A DNA stretch of 64,000 bases from Halorubrum cibi (GTDB taxonomy: Archaea; Halobacteriota; Halobacteria; Halobacteriales; Haloferacaceae). Below the pieces are notes generated by a model. It saw nothing but the letters and a program-made list of their open reading frames with translations. It ran no database searches and had not been told where the DNA came from. The translations under genes and the position numbers were made by a program. The stretch lies in assembly GCF_900182635.1 (NCBI RefSeq), contig NZ_FXTD01000004.1:62001-126000 (forward strand), given 5' to 3'. Positions 21,760 through 27,255 of the stretch are shown here, one piece after another (position 1 is the stretch's first letter; the number at the start of each line of letters is the position of its first letter).

Positions 21760-23814
21760 GTGTCAAAGCAGTTGGCCGAGGTCGAGACGCTGTTCCTCCA
21801 CGAGGCGCGGAGCGACTACACCGTGGTCGCGAACCGGGACGGCAACCGAGTGCTTCGCGGACGCCTCGAGCTCAAAGAGACGTCCGCAGGCCCCCGTCCC
21901 GGCAAGTTCCGCGTCATCAAAGACGGCGAGGACCATCCCCGATCCCCGGACGAGTTCGTCGACCTCGCTCGCGCGGCCACCCGCATCCGGATCTCCGAAC
22001 AGACCTCTCCCGAACGTCGCGAGCGCCTCCACGAGATGCTCGACGGCTACCAGCTGGAGGCGATGGCGGTCCGGACCTGTCGGCGCTGTGCGAACGACGG
22101 ACGCTACGGCCCGATCACGGCCGACACCGCGATCGAGCACAACGGCGAACGGATCTGCCGGGACTGCGCCCGCCGCGAGCTCGAGCGCGAGCTGTCGTAC
22201 AAGGGCGATTTCACGGGCGCGGCGGAGGAGCGACTCGAGGAGCTGTTGTACGACTCGAAGGACCTCGACCGGATCGTCAATCTGCTTCAGGGAGGACTCG
22301 ATCCCGACCTCACCAAGTACGACGAGGTGTCGGCCACCGTCGAGGACGTCTCGCCGGTGCGAACCGACGAGCTCGACCTCCACCCCGACCTGGCAGCCCG
22401 CGTTCAGGGCCGCTTCGAGGAGCTGTTGCCCGTCCAGAGCCTCTCCGTTCGAAACGGGCTCCTCGACGGCGACGACCAGCTCGTCGTGAGCGCGACCGCG
22501 ACGGGCAAGACCCTCGTCGGCGAGCTGGCGGGGATCGACCGGGCGCTGAACGGCGACGGAAAGCTACTGTTTCTCGTCCCGCTCGTCGCCCTCGCCAACC
22601 AGAAGCACGAGGACTTCGAGGACCGCTACGGCGACCTGCTGGACGTCTCCATCCGCGTGGGCTCCTCGCGGATCGCCGACGACGGCAATCGCTTCGACCC
22701 GAACGCCGACGTGATCGTCGGGACCTACGAGGGAATCGACCACGCGCTCCGGACGGGGAAGGACCTGGGCGACGTGGGGACCGTCGTCATCGACGAGGTC
22801 CACACCCTGAAGGAGGGGGAACGCGGCCACCGGCTCGACGGCCTGATCTCCCGGCTGAAGTACTACAGCGAGGAGCGGATGGAGCGCCACGAAGGGTACG
22901 ACGGCACCCAGTTCGTCTACCTCTCGGCGACCGTCGGCAACCCGGAGTGGCTCGCCGAGCGGCTGCGGGCGACGCTGATCGAGTTCGAGGAGCGCCCCGT
23001 CCCCATCGAGCGCCACGTCACTTTCGCGGACGGCCGCGAGAAGGCCGACATCGCCGACAAGCTCGTGAAACGCGAGTTCGACACGAAGTCCTCGAAGGGG
23101 TACCGCGGGCAGACGATAATCTTCACGAACTCCCGGCGACGCTGCCACGAGATCAGCCGAAAGCTGCGGTACGACTCCGCGCCGTACCACGCCGGGCTCG
23201 ATTACGGCCGCCGCAAGAAGGTCGAGCGCATGTTCGGGAACCAGGACCTGTCGGCGGTCGTCACCACGGCGGCGCTGGCCGCCGGCGTCGACTTCCCGGC
23301 CTCGCAGGTGATCTTCGACACGCTCGCGATGGGGATCGAGTGGCTCTCCGTCCAGGAGTTCTCCCAGATGCTCGGCCGGGCCGGCCGGCCCGATTACCAC
23401 GACCGCGGCCGGGTTTACCTCCTCGTCGAGCCGGACGCCGTCTACCACAACTCGATGGACCGGACCGAAGACGAGGTCGCGTTCACCCTGCTCAAAGGCG
23501 AAATGGAGGACGTCGCCACTCACTACGACGAGACGGCCGCCGTCGAGGAGACGCTCGCGAACGTCGTCGTCGCGGGAAAGCGGGCGAAGCGGCTCAACGA
23601 CCGGATGATCGGCGACGTGCCGACGAAGCACGCGGTCGGGAAGCTGCTGGAGTGGGAGTTCATCAACGGCTTCTCGCCGACACCGCTCGGGCGGGCGATC
23701 TGTCGACACTTCCTCGCGCCCGACGAGGCGTTCCGGATCCTCGATGCGGTCCGGAAGGGGACGGACCCATACGACCTCGTCGCGGACCTCGAGCTGTACG
23801 ACGAGGAGGAGTGA
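21760..23814 (+). CDS. Ski2-like superfamily 2 helicase with zinc ribbon insert
   Basis: 684 residues from a GTG. Residues about 108-140 hold a four-cysteine zinc-binding insert (CRRC ... CRDC). The helicase core has Walker A SATATGKT near 247, DEVH box in VVIDEVHTL, YLSATVGNP as motif III, and the second RecA domain with IIFTNSRRRCHEI, VVTTAALAAGVDFPA and MLGRAGRP. A C-terminal helical part resembles the winged-helix/ratchet region of Hel308/Ski2 proteins. It is a conserved archaeal helicase of unknown role, likely in RNA or DNA metabolism. Confidence 0.9.
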   Translation: MSKQLAEVETLFLHEARSDYTVVANRDGNRVLRGRLELKETSAGPRPGKFRVIKDGEDHPRSPDEFVDLARAATRIRISEQTSPERRERLHEMLDGYQLEAMAVRTCRRCANDGRYGPITADTAIEHNGERICRDCARRELERELSYKGDFTGAAEERLEELLYDSKDLDRIVNLLQGGLDPDLTKYDEVSATVEDVSPVRTDELDLHPDLAARVQGRFEELLPVQSLSVRNGLLDGDDQLVVSATATGKTLVGELAGIDRALNGDGKLLFLVPLVALANQKHEDFEDRYGDLLDVSIRVGSSRIADDGNRFDPNADVIVGTYEGIDHALRTGKDLGDVGTVVIDEVHTLKEGERGHRLDGLISRLKYYSEERMERHEGYDGTQFVYLSATVGNPEWLAERLRATLIEFEERPVPIERHVTFADGREKADIADKLVKREFDTKSSKGYRGQTIIFTNSRRRCHEISRKLRYDSAPYHAGLDYGRRKKVERMFGNQDLSAVVTTAALAAGVDFPASQVIFDTLAMGIEWLSVQEFSQMLGRAGRPDYHDRGRVYLLVEPDAVYHNSMDRTEDEVAFTLLKGEMEDVATHYDETAAVEETLANVVVAGKRAKRLNDRMIGDVPTKHAVGKLLEWEFINGFSPTPLGRAICRHFLAPDEAFRILDAVRKGTDPYDLVADLELYDEEE

Positions 23815-23834
23815 GGCGGGACCGACGAACGAAA

Positions 23835-23845
23835 CGCTTTAGCGG
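23835..23845 (+). promoter_or_regulatory. Promoter element of tRNA-Pro
   Basis: The cgctttagcgg element is centred about 27-29 nt before the first tRNA base (23869). This is the usual spacing for a haloarchaeal TATA element. Confidence 0.5.
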
Positions 23846-23868
23846 CTCATCCGGGTAATGGAGAACAC

Positions 23869-23939
23869 GGGACCATGGGTTAGTGGTATACTTCGAGCCT
23901 TGGGTGCTCGTGACCCCGGTTCGAATCCGGGTGGTCCCA
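23869..23939 (+). tRNA. tRNA-Pro (anticodon UGG)
   Basis: 71 nt including the discriminator A. The 7-bp acceptor pairs gggacca with tggtccc, the anticodon stem is cgagc/gctcg with loop cttgggt, giving anticodon TGG (codon CCA), and the T arm is ccccg-ttcgaat-ccggg-like with a normal GTTCGAATC. No intron. TTTT at 23941-23944 follows directly. The gene is 54 bp after the helicase stop. Confidence 0.95.
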
Positions 23940-23940
23940 C

Positions 23941-23944
23941 TTTT
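23941..23944 (+). terminator. Terminator T-run after tRNA-Pro
   Basis: TTTT starts one base after the discriminator and the following C, the usual position for tRNA transcription termination in archaea. Confidence 0.4.
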
Positions 23945-23991
23945 AACGCGCGAGCAACTCACGAGCGTCGCCGTCGCGATCGAGACGCCTG

Positions 23992-24144
23992 CTACCGCCG
24001 GTTTCGCTTGAGTTCTCGCATCCCCGCGTATCCGCGGAAGATGTCGGCGATCCATCGGCCCGCGGCGACGACCGCCTCGATCGGCCGACGCCACCACGGC
24101 CCGAGCTCCTCCTCGGCGTCGTCGTCGGTCTCGTTCGGTGCCAT
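23992..24144 (-). CDS. Small hypothetical protein (50 aa)
   Basis: The product starts MAPNETDDDAEEELGPWW and continues with an amphipathic/hydrophobic helix (PIEAVVAAGRWIADIFRGY), ending in a basic tail (MRELKRNRR). Its acidic start and tryptophan pair are typical of small haloarchaeal proteins. An AACTATG element is about 30 nt upstream. An ATG at 24174 would add ten residues. No family is recognised and, between two tRNA genes, this call stays tentative. Confidence 0.5.
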   Translation of the reverse strand: MAPNETDDDAEEELGPWWRRPIEAVVAAGRWIADIFRGYAGMRELKRNRR

Positions 24145-24353
24145 CGATCCGAGTGGTTCGGTACCGAGACACATAGTTGTTCGTTCGACCGGCGGCTCCG
24201 CCGCGTTTCGGTGCTGACGAAGTCGGTATCCACGCAGCATGCCGTCATCGCTCTTCGAATCGACATTCGTGTCGAAGCGGCGCGTCCTCGAGTCGGGGCG
24301 ACCGCCGTCTTTCGAAATCCTTTTGTCTCGATTCGGCCTTGGTCGAAACGCGA

Positions 24354-24427
24354 GCCGCCTTAGCTCAGACTGGGAGAGCACTCGACTGAAGATCGAGCTG
24401 TCCCCCGTTCAAATCGGGGAGGCGGCA
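24354..24427 (+). tRNA. tRNA-Phe (anticodon GAA)
   Basis: 74 nt with discriminator A. Acceptor gccgcct pairs with aggcggc, D arm gctcagactgggagagc is normal, the anticodon stem and loop ctcga-ctgaaga-tcgag give anticodon GAA, and the T arm is ccccg-ttcaaat-cgggg. A TTTT run begins at 24428. The last 20 nt of this tRNA recur three times downstream. Confidence 0.95.
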
Positions 24428-24490
24428 TTTTCCTGCGAACTCGTGAGGGAGCGGAGCGACCGAACCGTGAGCAGTGAAAATGCTCCCGAC

Positions 24491-24568
24491 CCGATTTGAG
24501 CAGACGAGTCGGGAGCCCGAGCGCAGCGAGGGCGAGCGTCTCGGCGAGTTCAAATCGGGGAGGCGGCA
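24491..24568 (+). repeat. 78-nt module with inverted tRNA-end copies, first occurrence
   Basis: Begins ccgatttgagcagacgag and ends with the tRNA-Phe 3' sequence, so the outer parts are inverted copies of each other (ccgatttga against ttcaaatcgg). It is 74/78 identical to 24760-24837. The central part has gagcccgagcg/cgagcgtctcg words that can also pair. The module could fold into a long imperfect hairpin closed by T-arm sequence. Confidence 0.75.
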
Positions 24569-24759
24569 TCCTGATTCTACACGATTTCCATTCGAAGAGA
24601 TTTCGCTCCGTGTCATAGCCCGAGCTGTCTCCCGTCCCCACGAGTGGAGCGAGCGGGGAACAGTGAGACTCCCTCCGGTCGTCTCACGCGTTTCAAATCG
24701 GGGAAGCGGCATATTCTGAACCCATGAGCGGAGCGAGCGGGTGAATAACCGACGTCGAG

Positions 24760-24837
24760 CCGATTTGAGCAGACGAGTCGCGAGCCCGAGCGGAGCGAGG
24801 CCGAGCGTCTCGGCGAATTCAAATCGGGGAGGCGGCA
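24760..24837 (+). repeat. 78-nt module with inverted tRNA-end copies, second occurrence
   Basis: Same module as at 24491-24568, differing at four positions. It closes the array next to the DUF502 gene. Confidence 0.75.
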
Positions 24838-24845
24838 GTCCAATT

Positions 24846-25709
24846 CTACTGCGTCTTCTCGTCGTTCGGGTCCTCGTCCTCCGCGTTCTCGTCGTCGGTC
24901 CTGATCGCGTCTTGGAGGCGGTCGATGTCGGTGACCTTCTCTAAGTCGCCCATGGTGACGGGCGTCTTCTCGTTGGCGCGCTCGCCGGTGGCGACGCCGC
25001 TCGTGAGGATGCTTCGGACGCCCTCCTCGATGGACATGTCCACGTCCATGACGCGGTCTCGGGGGACGTGCGTCAGGAATCCGCCCGTGACGGGATTCGG
25101 TGCGAGCGGGATGAACAGCGTGACCATCTCGTCGTGACCGGCTGCCTCGGCGACCGTCTCCGGCGACGTGCTCGTCTCGAAGCCGATGACGTGGACGTCC
25201 TCGCCGAAACACTGGACGAGTTTTATCTCCTGGAAGTTCTCGGCCTCGTTGTCGAGCATCACGTCGCCCATCCGGCGGAAGCTCTTGTAGACGGTCCCGA
25301 TTCCGGGAATCGACGCCAGCGCGAGGTCGATGACGTCTATCGCCTGCTCGCCGTATCGGTGACGACCGATCGAGCCGACGACGACGACGATCCCCAACAG
25401 GATGCCGACGGCGATGATCTCGGTGAAGAAGTCGATGACGTAGCCGTAGACGTGTAACTCGATCAGTACGGAGACGAGGTCGGTCTCCCTGAACCACGCG
25501 ATGACGCCGAACCATCTGAGCACTCGGATGAAGGGAGTCAGCGCGCCCGTGATGAAATCGAGGGCGATCGTCAGAACGTACAGCGTGATCACGAAGGGGA
25601 CGATGATCGCGATCCCCGTCATCAACACGTCGAGCGTCCCGCCGTAGAGCGATTCTACCGTGTCACGCGCCGGCCGTGACGAGTCGTCGGAGGAGTCTGG
25701 AACCGCCAT
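24846..25709 (-). CDS. DUF502 membrane protein
   Basis: 287 residues. Two to three hydrophobic regions occupy the N-terminal half (VLMTGIAIIVPFVITLYVLTI; IIAVGILLGIVVVVGSIG). The soluble part has the DUF502 core: IPGIGTVYKSFRRMGDVML, then GEDVHVIGFETSTSPETV, FIPLAPNPVTGGFLTHVPRDRVMDVDMSIEEG. Family members are inner-membrane proteins of unknown role found in bacteria, archaea and plants. The ATG at 25709 starts the family homology; longer in-frame readings run into repeat DNA. The C-terminus is acidic. Confidence 0.85.
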   Translation of the reverse strand: MAVPDSSDDSSRPARDTVESLYGGTLDVLMTGIAIIVPFVITLYVLTIALDFITGALTPFIRVLRWFGVIAWFRETDLVSVLIELHVYGYVIDFFTEIIAVGILLGIVVVVGSIGRHRYGEQAIDVIDLALASIPGIGTVYKSFRRMGDVMLDNEAENFQEIKLVQCFGEDVHVIGFETSTSPETVAEAAGHDEMVTLFIPLAPNPVTGGFLTHVPRDRVMDVDMSIEEGVRSILTSGVATGERANEKTPVTMGDLEKVTDIDRLQDAIRTDDENAEDEDPNDEKTQ

Positions 25710-25836
25710 CGTTGTTCTCACGAAAACCACTGTGAAAGCAGTGTCGTTCCTCCGAGACGCGGTCCTCGCTTCCGATCGAAGGAACATCCCGAGTCGACGC
25801 CGCGGAACGACCTCGTCGGATCTCGAAGTGACGGAA

Positions 25837-25873
25837 CCGTCGGTGTACTTCCGTCGGTGTACTTCCGTCGGTG
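25837..25873 (+). repeat. Short tandem repeat, 14-bp unit
   Basis: The unit ccgtcggtgtactt occurs at 25837-25850 and 25851-25864 and is followed by the partial unit ccgtcggtg. It lies about 30 bp before the edge of dispersed repeat copy C and is probably a slippage product. Confidence 0.7.
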
Positions 25874-25901
25874 GGCTGCGGACGGAACCGCCCGTCCTGA
25901 T

Positions 25902-26257
25902 TCGAGTGCTTGTGGTACGGGTGTTTCGTGAGTGATCGGAGCGATGAGAACGGGACCGTTGCTGTTGCGGTGAACGTCTCCAAAGCCCCAGCCGGCTCCG
26001 GTCGAGGGCCTCGCTGTGGTCCTCGTCGCTCACTGCGTTCGCTCCTGCGGTCCTTGCGTCGGCCGTCTTCCCGGACCGGCTGCCCCTTTGAGTCCCGCCC
26101 AACCGCCCCGAAACCGCACCTCACGCCTCCCCAGCCTCGCGGCTCCTTTCAGTCGCCGCGTCCCTCGCGGTCGGGTTCGCGGGTGCTGTCGCACCCGCTC
26201 ACCGGCGCGCCACCGCCCAGAGGATCGCTCTCTGCTTCGGCTGTAGTGAGCATCCGC
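25902..26257 (+). repeat. Dispersed repeat, copy C (about 356 bp)
   Basis: Same edges and order of blocks as copy A: tcgagtgctt at the left, gggtgtttcgtgagtg, ggtgaacgtctccaaagccc, cacctcacgcctccccagcc, ggctcctttcagtcgccgcg, then tagtgagcatccgc at the right. Length equals copy A. Sequence between the blocks differs, so the copies are not recent duplicates. It lies between two convergent/unrelated genes and does not interrupt either. Confidence 0.75.
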
Positions 26258-26421
26258 GAGGAATCGAGCGGTTCACCGACGGAGCCGTCGGAGACGGCGG
26301 AGTCGGCTTTTTCCCTCCCGGTTTTCGAGGAGTGGTTCCCGAAGCGAACGCAGTGAGCGAGGGCACCCGACGACGAAAAAGGTGGCTGTGTTGACCGACT
26401 ATGACCGCTCCTCTCTGCGAG

Positions 26422-27255
26422 TCACTCCCCGGTGACGCGTCCCGCGAACTCACGAAGCTCCCGGTCGAACCGCGCCGGGGCCTCGATGAACGGTGAGTGG
26501 CCGACTCCCTCGAAGATCGAGACTTCGCCGTCGGGAACGAGGTCGGCGTGTCGTTCGGCGGCCTTCGGGAGGACGACCCGGTCGGCCGATCCGTGAACGA
26601 ACAGCGCGGGGACGTCCAGACCGCGCAGCGTCTCGGCGTTCGCGCCGCTTCGCGCCTGGAGCGCCTCCCGAACCCGCGGGGGACACCGCGCGTTGTATCC
26701 GAGCATGTGGTGGTACTCCCGCGGCGGGACCGGTTCGGCCGTACAGATGTCGAGGAATTCCTCGAGCGCGTCCACGCTGGCCTCGGCGTCGCGGGTCTCG
26801 AGGTCCTCGAGCATGTCGGCGAACTCCTCGCCGGCGATCTCGCCGGCCGCGTCGGTTCCTTTCTCCGTGATCGCCCCCACGAAGACGGCTCCGGCCACGT
26901 CCTCGGTTCCGTCGACGGCGAGGTAGTCGGCGACGACGAGTCCCCCGTACGACCACCCGACGAGGACCGGGTCGTCGGTCGCCAGCTCGTCGATCACGGC
27001 GCGCAGGTCCGCGGCCCACAGCGCCGGGTCGCGGTACGGGCCGTCGCCCGCGGGCTTCTCGGAGTCGCCGTGACCCCGGAGATCGGGCGCGAGCAGGCGG
27101 AACTCCTCGATCAGCGAGCCGTCGAACTGTTCGTACCAACAGAGCCGCGACTGCGAGTAGCCGTGAACGAGCAGGATCGTCGGGGCGTCCGGCGGTCCCG
27201 CGTCGTCGACGCGTAGCTCCGTCCCCTCGCCGCCGACGACCGTGTGTGACTCCAT
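26422..27255 (-). CDS. Alpha/beta hydrolase
   Basis: 277 residues. The oxyanion region LLVHGYSQSRLCW, DLRGHGDSEKP, the nucleophile elbow GWSYGGLV (serine near residue 99) and the C-terminal GVGHSPFIEAP with the catalytic histidine match the haloperoxidase/epoxide-hydrolase-like group. The acid is probably in VHGSADRVV. Soluble and intracellular. The substrate is not apparent. A GTATATACC element lies about 27 nt upstream of the ATG, consistent with a leaderless mRNA. Confidence 0.88.
   Translation of the reverse strand: MESHTVVGGEGTELRVDDAGPPDAPTILLVHGYSQSRLCWYEQFDGSLIEEFRLLAPDLRGHGDSEKPAGDGPYRDPALWAADLRAVIDELATDDPVLVGWSYGGLVVADYLAVDGTEDVAGAVFVGAITEKGTDAAGEIAGEEFADMLEDLETRDAEASVDALEEFLDICTAEPVPPREYHHMLGYNARCPPRVREALQARSGANAETLRGLDVPALFVHGSADRVVLPKAAERHADLVPDGEVSIFEGVGHSPFIEAPARFDRELREFAGRVTGE

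Follow-up and report, generated by a model that had tools for sequence, protein, structure and literature searches.

The closest described systems to which the locus reported here may be compared are integron cassette arrays and CALINs, the attC hairpins of which are recombined by IntI, archaeal cases having been reported as well (PMC9668308). Two haloarchaeal phenomena also come near, i.e. the SNJ2-type elements integrating at tRNA 3' ends and the partial tRNA remnants; for Haloquadratum, deletions between short repeats, partial tRNA copies included, are documented (PMC3119063). The window analysed here—a stretch of 64,000 nucleotides from Halorubrum cibi—contains a tRNA-Phe gene trailed by three short units, each of them closed by a copy of the 3' end of that tRNA.

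The last 20 nt of the tRNA-Phe gene, TTCAAATCGGGGAGGCGGCA, from this point onwards termed R, recur at 24549-24568 (0 mismatches), 24692-24711 (1 mismatch) and 24818-24837 (0 mismatches), with start-to-start spacings of 141, 143 and 126 bp; a perfect 20-mer seen twice again inside 410 bp is far above chance. The three extra copies listed in the initial annotation are real, ending at 24568, 24711 and 24837, and its coordinates were accurate to a base or two; of the two changes it counted in the second copy, just one falls within the 20 nt, the other being a flanking base. The features of the locus are the following:

24354-24427, + strand: tRNA-Phe(GAA), called by ARAGORN and matched by Rfam RF00005 at 61.3 bits
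24408-24427, + strand: R0, the last 20 nt of tRNA-Phe and the first att-like copy, from the ARAGORN tRNA call
24428-24486, + strand: left hairpin module of unit 1 (type A), TTTTCCTGCG...GAAAATGCTCCC, with 84-95% identity over 58 nt in other haloarchaeal genera and family f3
24487-24501, + strand: R' of unit 1, a degenerate inverted copy of T loop and T stem, CGACCCGATTTGAGC, agreeing in 12/15 positions with the reverse complement of the tRNA T-loop region
24502-24548, + strand: inner hairpin hp2 of unit 1, tip GAGCGCAGCGAG, from the DNA fold and covariance model R1
24549-24568, + strand: R1, a perfect tRNA 3'-end copy, from sequence comparison with tRNA-Phe
24569-24691, + strand: unit 2 (type B), from sequence comparison with relatives
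24692-24711, + strand: R2, a tRNA 3'-end copy with one change, GGGGAAGCGG, from sequence comparison with tRNA-Phe
24712-24755, + strand: left hairpin module of unit 3 (type A'), TATTCTGAACCCATGAGCGGAGCGAGCGGGT, of a family present in many congeners
24756-24770, + strand: R' of unit 3, CGAGCCGATTTGAGC, from model R1
24756-24817, + strand: R' and inner hairpin of unit 3, matched by model R1 at 49.4 bits (G000:C4:86756-86831)
24818-24837, + strand: R3, a perfect tRNA 3'-end copy, at most 10 bp before the end of the DUF502 gene
24846-25709, - strand: DUF502 protein gene, the downstream flank (PF04367, 78.5 bits)

Beyond what the initial annotation noticed, units 1 and 3 resemble each other (90% over 94 nt), whereas unit 2 is different, and an inverted T-arm copy and a hairpin are present in each. 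Covariance model R1 matches unit 1 at 51.4 bits (G000:C4:86487-86562), and the segment from its R' through R1 (24487-24568) has a DNA-fold z of -3.3. Unit 2 starts with a left end, TCCTGATTCTACACGATTTCCATTCG, resembling the left ends of integrative elements, and holds a piece of the tRNA-Phe 3' half (CGAGCTGTCTCCCGT, 24621-24635), the T loop of which is broken by an insert of two hairpins (24636-24691); the second of these hairpins has its loop inverted with regard to relatives. The Rfam scan of 23800-26500 at E<1 matched two tRNAs and nothing else. Concerning the DUF502 gene, used as the downstream flank for comparing the locus in the nearest relatives, it adjoins the array in three other loci too (L052, L074 and L075), and its product shares 93% identity with the Halorubrum halodurans Cb34 counterpart.

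The search for the locus covered 53 genomes of Halorubrum, and the tRNA-Phe locus was compared in 51 congeners, which carry from 0 to 4 extra copies of R, nearly always 112-143 bp apart; the array is therefore not one shared unchanged by all relatives. The discrete gain and loss anticipated in the initial annotation is borne out, since among the pairs alignable in both flanks the array differs in 38 and agrees in 6, which means gain or loss of whole units. Examples are L059 (B-A) versus L081 (none), with flanks at 91% and 90%, and L038 (A-B-A) versus L044 (A), with flanks at 91% and 93%. The units at tRNA-Phe belong to two families, A and B, in variable order, the array types being A (16 loci), none (9), B-A (7), A-B (6), A-B-A (4) and B (4), with A-A-A-B and B-B among the rarer ones. 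Three identical units stand in tandem in L076, and identical tandem units are present also in L038. The B units contain a longer tRNA 3' half, the T loop of which is split by the two-hairpin insert; a hairpin with its loop reads GTGAGAC-TCCCTCCGGTC-GTCTCAC in unit 2 of the window and, with the loop inverted, GTGAGAC-GACCGGAGGGA-GTCTCAC in others. At the element end in L072, a hairpin loop is likewise inverted with the short stems unchanged, as if the loops flip. The exact unit spacing at tRNA-Phe was found in 54 of 394 haloarchaeal genomes, representing 13 of 86 genera.

A phenomenon confined to the Phe locus was rejected by a census of tRNA loci, in which a copy of the own 3' end (T loop to 3' end) was sought downstream of each tRNA, within 1.4 kb in its own genome. 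Such a copy follows 8 of 41 tRNAs in the genome of the window, 17 of 41 in another Halorubrum (G021) and 18 of 44 in a member of another family (G303); a few of these matches are tandem tRNA genes, excluded from later counts, and more than half of the tRNAs are without a unit in each of the three genomes. The longest arrays stand at Glu-TTC, with five units, and at Lys-TTT, with four or five, the Glu-TTC array of G303 exhibiting the tandem pattern XYXYX. Model R1 places 10 of its 11 matches in the window's genome (E<0.1) directly behind tRNAs; in three other, complete genomes, 67 of 80 full-length matches follow a tRNA of the same strand at a distance of at most 700 bp, and several of the exceptions belong to tRNAs that the screen had overlooked or stand on the far side of integrated elements. 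In a scan across the phylum, run with stricter filters, the model matched 51 of 53 haloarchaea versus 0 of 242 other archaea.

It should be pointed out that the units, covering 24 tRNA kinds (62 units from three genomes of two families), share one architecture, the order being R, a left hairpin starting from the tRNA end, R' (inverted T loop and T stem), hp2 and R, with an inner hairpin tip of hp2 that is GAGCGNAGCGAG-like. The spacers, which the initial annotation read as scars of repeated insertion, are not random scars but form one family of structured hairpins behind many tRNAs across haloarchaea. Units stand ~90-185 bp apart, up to five in a row, with spacers of ~70-165 nt that contain no gene and leave no room for that of an integrase. 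A perfect stem of at least 7 bp is found in the left hairpin of 42% of units, as against 2% in shuffles. R' tracks its own tRNA, the summed match being 719 versus 612 ± 12.6 (maximum 646) when the tRNA identities are permuted, as exemplified by Lys-TTT (R' GAGAGGGAGTTGAAC versus R GTTCAACTCCCTCTC). Thymine makes up 54% of the first 6 nt after the tRNA end, and the bases following R are mostly TTT, CTT or TGA; CCA occurs in no unit, for which reason tRNA-primed reverse transcription, with R' resembling a primer-binding site, was rejected.

Modules are shared beyond single tRNAs and single genera. The left hairpins of the Ser-GGA and Asp-GTC units are 89% identical, and hp2 behind different tRNAs reaches 93%, while at Val-TAC of two species the left hairpin is kept (90%) and hp2 differs (65%). 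The 58-nt left module of unit 1 retains 84-95% identity in other genera and in family f3, as compared with 74-80% for the conserved neighbouring helicase gene in those checked among the genomes sharing the module; this higher conservation, together with the patchy presence, suggests that the left module has spread laterally, strong constraint being the alternative.

Several further observations concern the hairpins and their occurrence elsewhere. A GNA loop with tandem G-A pairs is a pattern of very stable DNA mini-hairpins; the tips in all units read GAGC-GNA-GCGAG, and in the tip variants GAACGNAGTGAG the loop-adjacent G-C is replaced by A-T. At L265 (G043:C1:1213800-1214400, ~240-400), the same arrangement is met at the apparent 3' end of a protein gene, GTTCGATCCGGCGTAAGCCGGATC standing on both sides of an hp2-like hairpin, so that R need not be a tRNA end. 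An intergenic repeat of the window, CCAAAGCCCCAGCCG ... GGCTGCCCCTTTGAGTCCCGCCC ... CCTCACGCCTCCCCAGCCTCG (25965-26400), is dispersed in many copies, with 47 matches in its own genome; in G043, repeats related to it include the inner hairpin of the tRNA units in bare form. Dense clusters of additional tRNA genes are present in haloarchaeal genomes of family f3 (G303:C2:76238-79645 and G054:C1:2635124-2637763), probably within mobile elements.

Folding was assessed on an alignment of 35 units (A1). The covariation of R'/R plus the inner helix amounts to 0.370, compared with 0.150 ± 0.011 in shuffled and at most 0.125 in slid alignments, the cells changed on both sides numbering 106 versus 41; the inner helix is 94% paired, with 6 of its 7 pairs changed on both sides. 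Covariation was seen again in 93 distinct sequences, this second alignment having been fitted to the model, and the DNA folds of six units gave z-scores of -3.6 to -7.5. In the inner helix, G-T (11 cells) is no commoner than A-C (10 cells), versus ~770 Watson-Crick cells, which suggests DNA rather than RNA folding; in the outer helix, G-T exceeds A-C, mainly in one column. Within the inner helix, 32 of 35 sequences retain a T-T mismatch between covarying pairs, so that the mismatch is not erased. Together with the inverted loops, these features suggest that the hairpins are important, or active, at the DNA level. A known structured RNA was rejected, there being no Rfam match and the inner-helix mismatches being strand-symmetric, with no preference for G-T.

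The att-like behaviour that the initial annotation ascribed to the copies finds support in four tyrosine-recombinase elements of relatives, sitting between a tRNA and an R-bounded unit. Two of them, of 7.2 kb (L053) and 9.9 kb (L075), lie between tRNA-Phe and the array, their tyrosine recombinases—recognized by Pfam and NCBIfam, respectively—adjoining the far R copy. The other two, of 18 kb and 11 kb, come from another family and are placed at tRNA-Tyr and tRNA-Thr (L260 and L262), before an R-bounded unit and with the tyrosine recombinase at the far end. The integrase of the 9.9-kb element is 46% identical to that of the SNJ2 virus. R thus serves SNJ2-type elements as an att site, and the units and the integrative elements are stacked together there. 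The integrases found, all in these separate elements, score far below the XerA/integron-integrase cut-off.

Unit 2 of the window and unit 2 of L041 start like the left ends of the integrase-bearing elements in L053, L075 and L084; the idea of a larger element since deleted, also put forward in the initial annotation, may hold for the former. The attR sites of L053 and L072 share the T-loop insert of the B units. In L053, in L072 and in the B units found in many Halorubrum, it is precisely the T loop of the displaced tRNA-Phe 3' fragment (attR) that the insert interrupts; the related 9.9-kb element of L075 has an intact attR, and the two-hairpin insert possibly blocks excision.

As regards the viruses, those of SNJ2 type that have been sequenced possess an attP that repeats 13-15 bp of the tRNA acceptor end and has no such hairpin; neither R' nor hp2 was found in the attP flanks of Halfgib1, Humcor2 and Harhisp1, and no hairpin was found in the integrase-side flanks of SNJ2, HHPV4 and HRPV9. 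Model R1 gave no convincing match in the genomes of six viruses, the best one (E 0.037) lying elsewhere than at attP. Since these attP and integrase-side flanks are without the hairpin, an origin of the A units as decayed ends of SNJ2-type viruses was rejected; for the B units it is kept open. The search of phage, plasmid and viral collections that the initial annotation had suggested yielded no match to the spacers: blastn of the array against phages and plasmids returned unrelated tRNAs only, and there were 0 matches to exact R in IMG/VR and 0 to two hp2 patterns.

Tentatively, and at somewhat less than even probability, the array may be regarded as hairpin cassettes stacked in tandem, non-autonomous and att-bounded, for which recombination in trans at R is probable. 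In favour of this stand the observed architecture, the covariation, the linkage to tRNAs, the spread across the class, the turnover in whole units and the integrase-bearing elements at the same R. Each cassette (~90-160 bp, gene-free) would consist of the left hairpin, R', hp2 and R, the last being common to the tRNA and every neighbouring cassette and serving as the recombination core. A tyrosine recombinase acting in trans, e.g. from the SNJ2-type elements that use the same R, would join or remove whole cassettes, and the tRNA would be restored at each event, its 3' end being supplied by R. When the DNA is single-stranded or forms a cruciform, the pairing of R' with R would rebuild a double-stranded tRNA core at the foot of the hairpin, as in integron attC; the need for the folded strand to present such a core would keep R' complementary to the R of each tRNA. 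The movement in trans that the initial annotation supposed for the spacers, if mobile, would then proceed by site-specific recombination rather than slippage, with the folded strand as its presumed substrate and the SNJ2-type integrase as a candidate enzyme. Neither an excised circle nor a dedicated recombinase was seen, which speaks against cassettes, as do the lack of matches in the phage, plasmid and viral collections, the viral attP sites without the hairpin, the documented deletion at short repeats in haloarchaea (PMC3119063) and the misfit of R with the integron core GTTRRRY; the XYXYX pattern at Glu-TTC of G303 as well as the identical units of L076 can be produced by ordinary homologous recombination between repeats. 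The broader proposal of a class-wide haloarchaeal system, in which a tyrosine recombinase moves gene-free cassettes on folded single-stranded DNA, with an arm matched to the tRNA and with tRNA genes taking the role of attI, appears doubtful at present.

The main rival to mobile cassettes is an origin as passive scars, in which decayed integrative elements left tRNA ends behind, homologous recombination or slippage duplicated and deleted units, and template switching mended the hairpins (quasipalindrome correction), with no recombination specific to cassettes. It is favoured by unit 2 of both the window and L041 beginning like integrase-bearing elements, by the B-unit T-loop insert in the attR of L053 and L072, and by the identical tandem units in L076, L038 and G303; template switching would account for the inverted loops of window unit 2 and of the L072 element, short-repeat deletion is known from Haloquadratum (PMC3119063), and partial tRNAs beside full ones are described in Haloferax gibbonsii (PMC7921747). 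Decay does not, however, predict one architecture behind at least 24 tRNA kinds, nor the T-T mismatch retained across the class, nor the resemblance of modules that follow different tRNAs, nor a conservation between families that is higher in non-coding modules than in the neighbouring gene. In the six viruses examined, moreover, no hp2 was found at attP. Passive scars appear rather unlikely.

A host feature—a structure for transcription stop or 3' processing, or a spare attB decoying viruses, with the variation reflecting turnover of a loosely constrained structure—is unlikely. The T-rich start of the units directly after the tRNA end, their position on the sense strand downstream of tRNAs and their presence in 51 of 53 haloarchaea would suit it, as would the elements at tRNA-Phe, Tyr and Thr sitting between the tRNA and older R copies. 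The units are, however, dispensable, since more than half of the tRNAs are without them and near relatives lack them at the same tRNA; moreover, the inner helix, unlike an RNA helix, does not prefer G-T over A-C, and up to five units are more than a terminator requires. Finally, that ordinary hairpin-containing intergenic repeats of haloarchaea stand behind tRNAs by happenstance is highly improbable, given that the great majority of full-length T-arm matches (67 of 80 in three genomes) stand behind tRNAs and that each R' tracks its particular tRNA, although the bare inner hairpin does occur without T-arm copies away from tRNAs (8 core-only matches in G043 and 1 in the genome of the window).

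If the units prove to be mobile cassettes, they would represent a hidden gene-free array system at tRNA genes in nearly every haloarchaeal genome and an archaeal counterpart of integron-type folded-DNA recombination, with tRNA genes as landing sites. Even if passive, they would be an abundant family of DNA structures that shapes the integration sites of viruses and plasmids and records integration history, and they would confuse the annotation of tRNAs and islands.

With integron cassette arrays and CALINs, the units share the tandem arrangement of short cassettes beside one anchor, variable in order and number; a hairpin foot formed by a conserved core, the inner edge of which reads ...AAC / GTT..., and conserved unpaired bases; and the occurrence of at least two hairpin sites in tandem within 4 kb. 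They differ in being anchored at a tRNA gene rather than at attI and in having gene-free cassettes and a tRNA-specific core (GTTCAAA); in the units compared, R begins GTTCRAA, its C at the first R position departing from the attC GTTRRRY/RYYYAAC; no intI was seen beside the array loci compared. The SNJ2-type (betapleolipovirus) elements use the same tRNA 3' end as the att site and stack there in tandem, and each unit is, like them, bounded at both ends by direct tRNA 3'-end repeats; those elements, however, are 7-20 kb long and carry an integrase, whereas the units have no genes, and the viral attP is a 13-15 bp acceptor-end copy without the unit hairpin. The partial tRNA remnants of Haloferax gibbonsii (PMC7921747) and Haloquadratum (PMC3119063) are likewise partial 3' copies, some of them beside a full tRNA; the passages concerned make no mention of hairpins, an inverted arm tracking the tRNA, a tandem array or a class-wide family.

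As to REPINs, PATEs and MITEs, these are similarly short, non-coding, palindromic, apparently non-autonomous and moved in trans, but the arms of the units are matched to the target tRNA, not to a fixed sequence bound by a transposase. In contrast to MITEs and insertion sequences, the units do not have fixed terminal inverted repeats, their ends varying by family and tRNA and their boundary being the tRNA-specific R; from tRNA-primed retroelements they are set apart by copied 3' ends without CCA. No description of the hairpin-unit architecture was found in Rfam and the open-licence literature, and a prior account could exist in subscription papers, which lie outside that coverage. As the units lack defining features of each known family, they look like a new class of tiny tRNA-linked DNA element, probably a mobile one.
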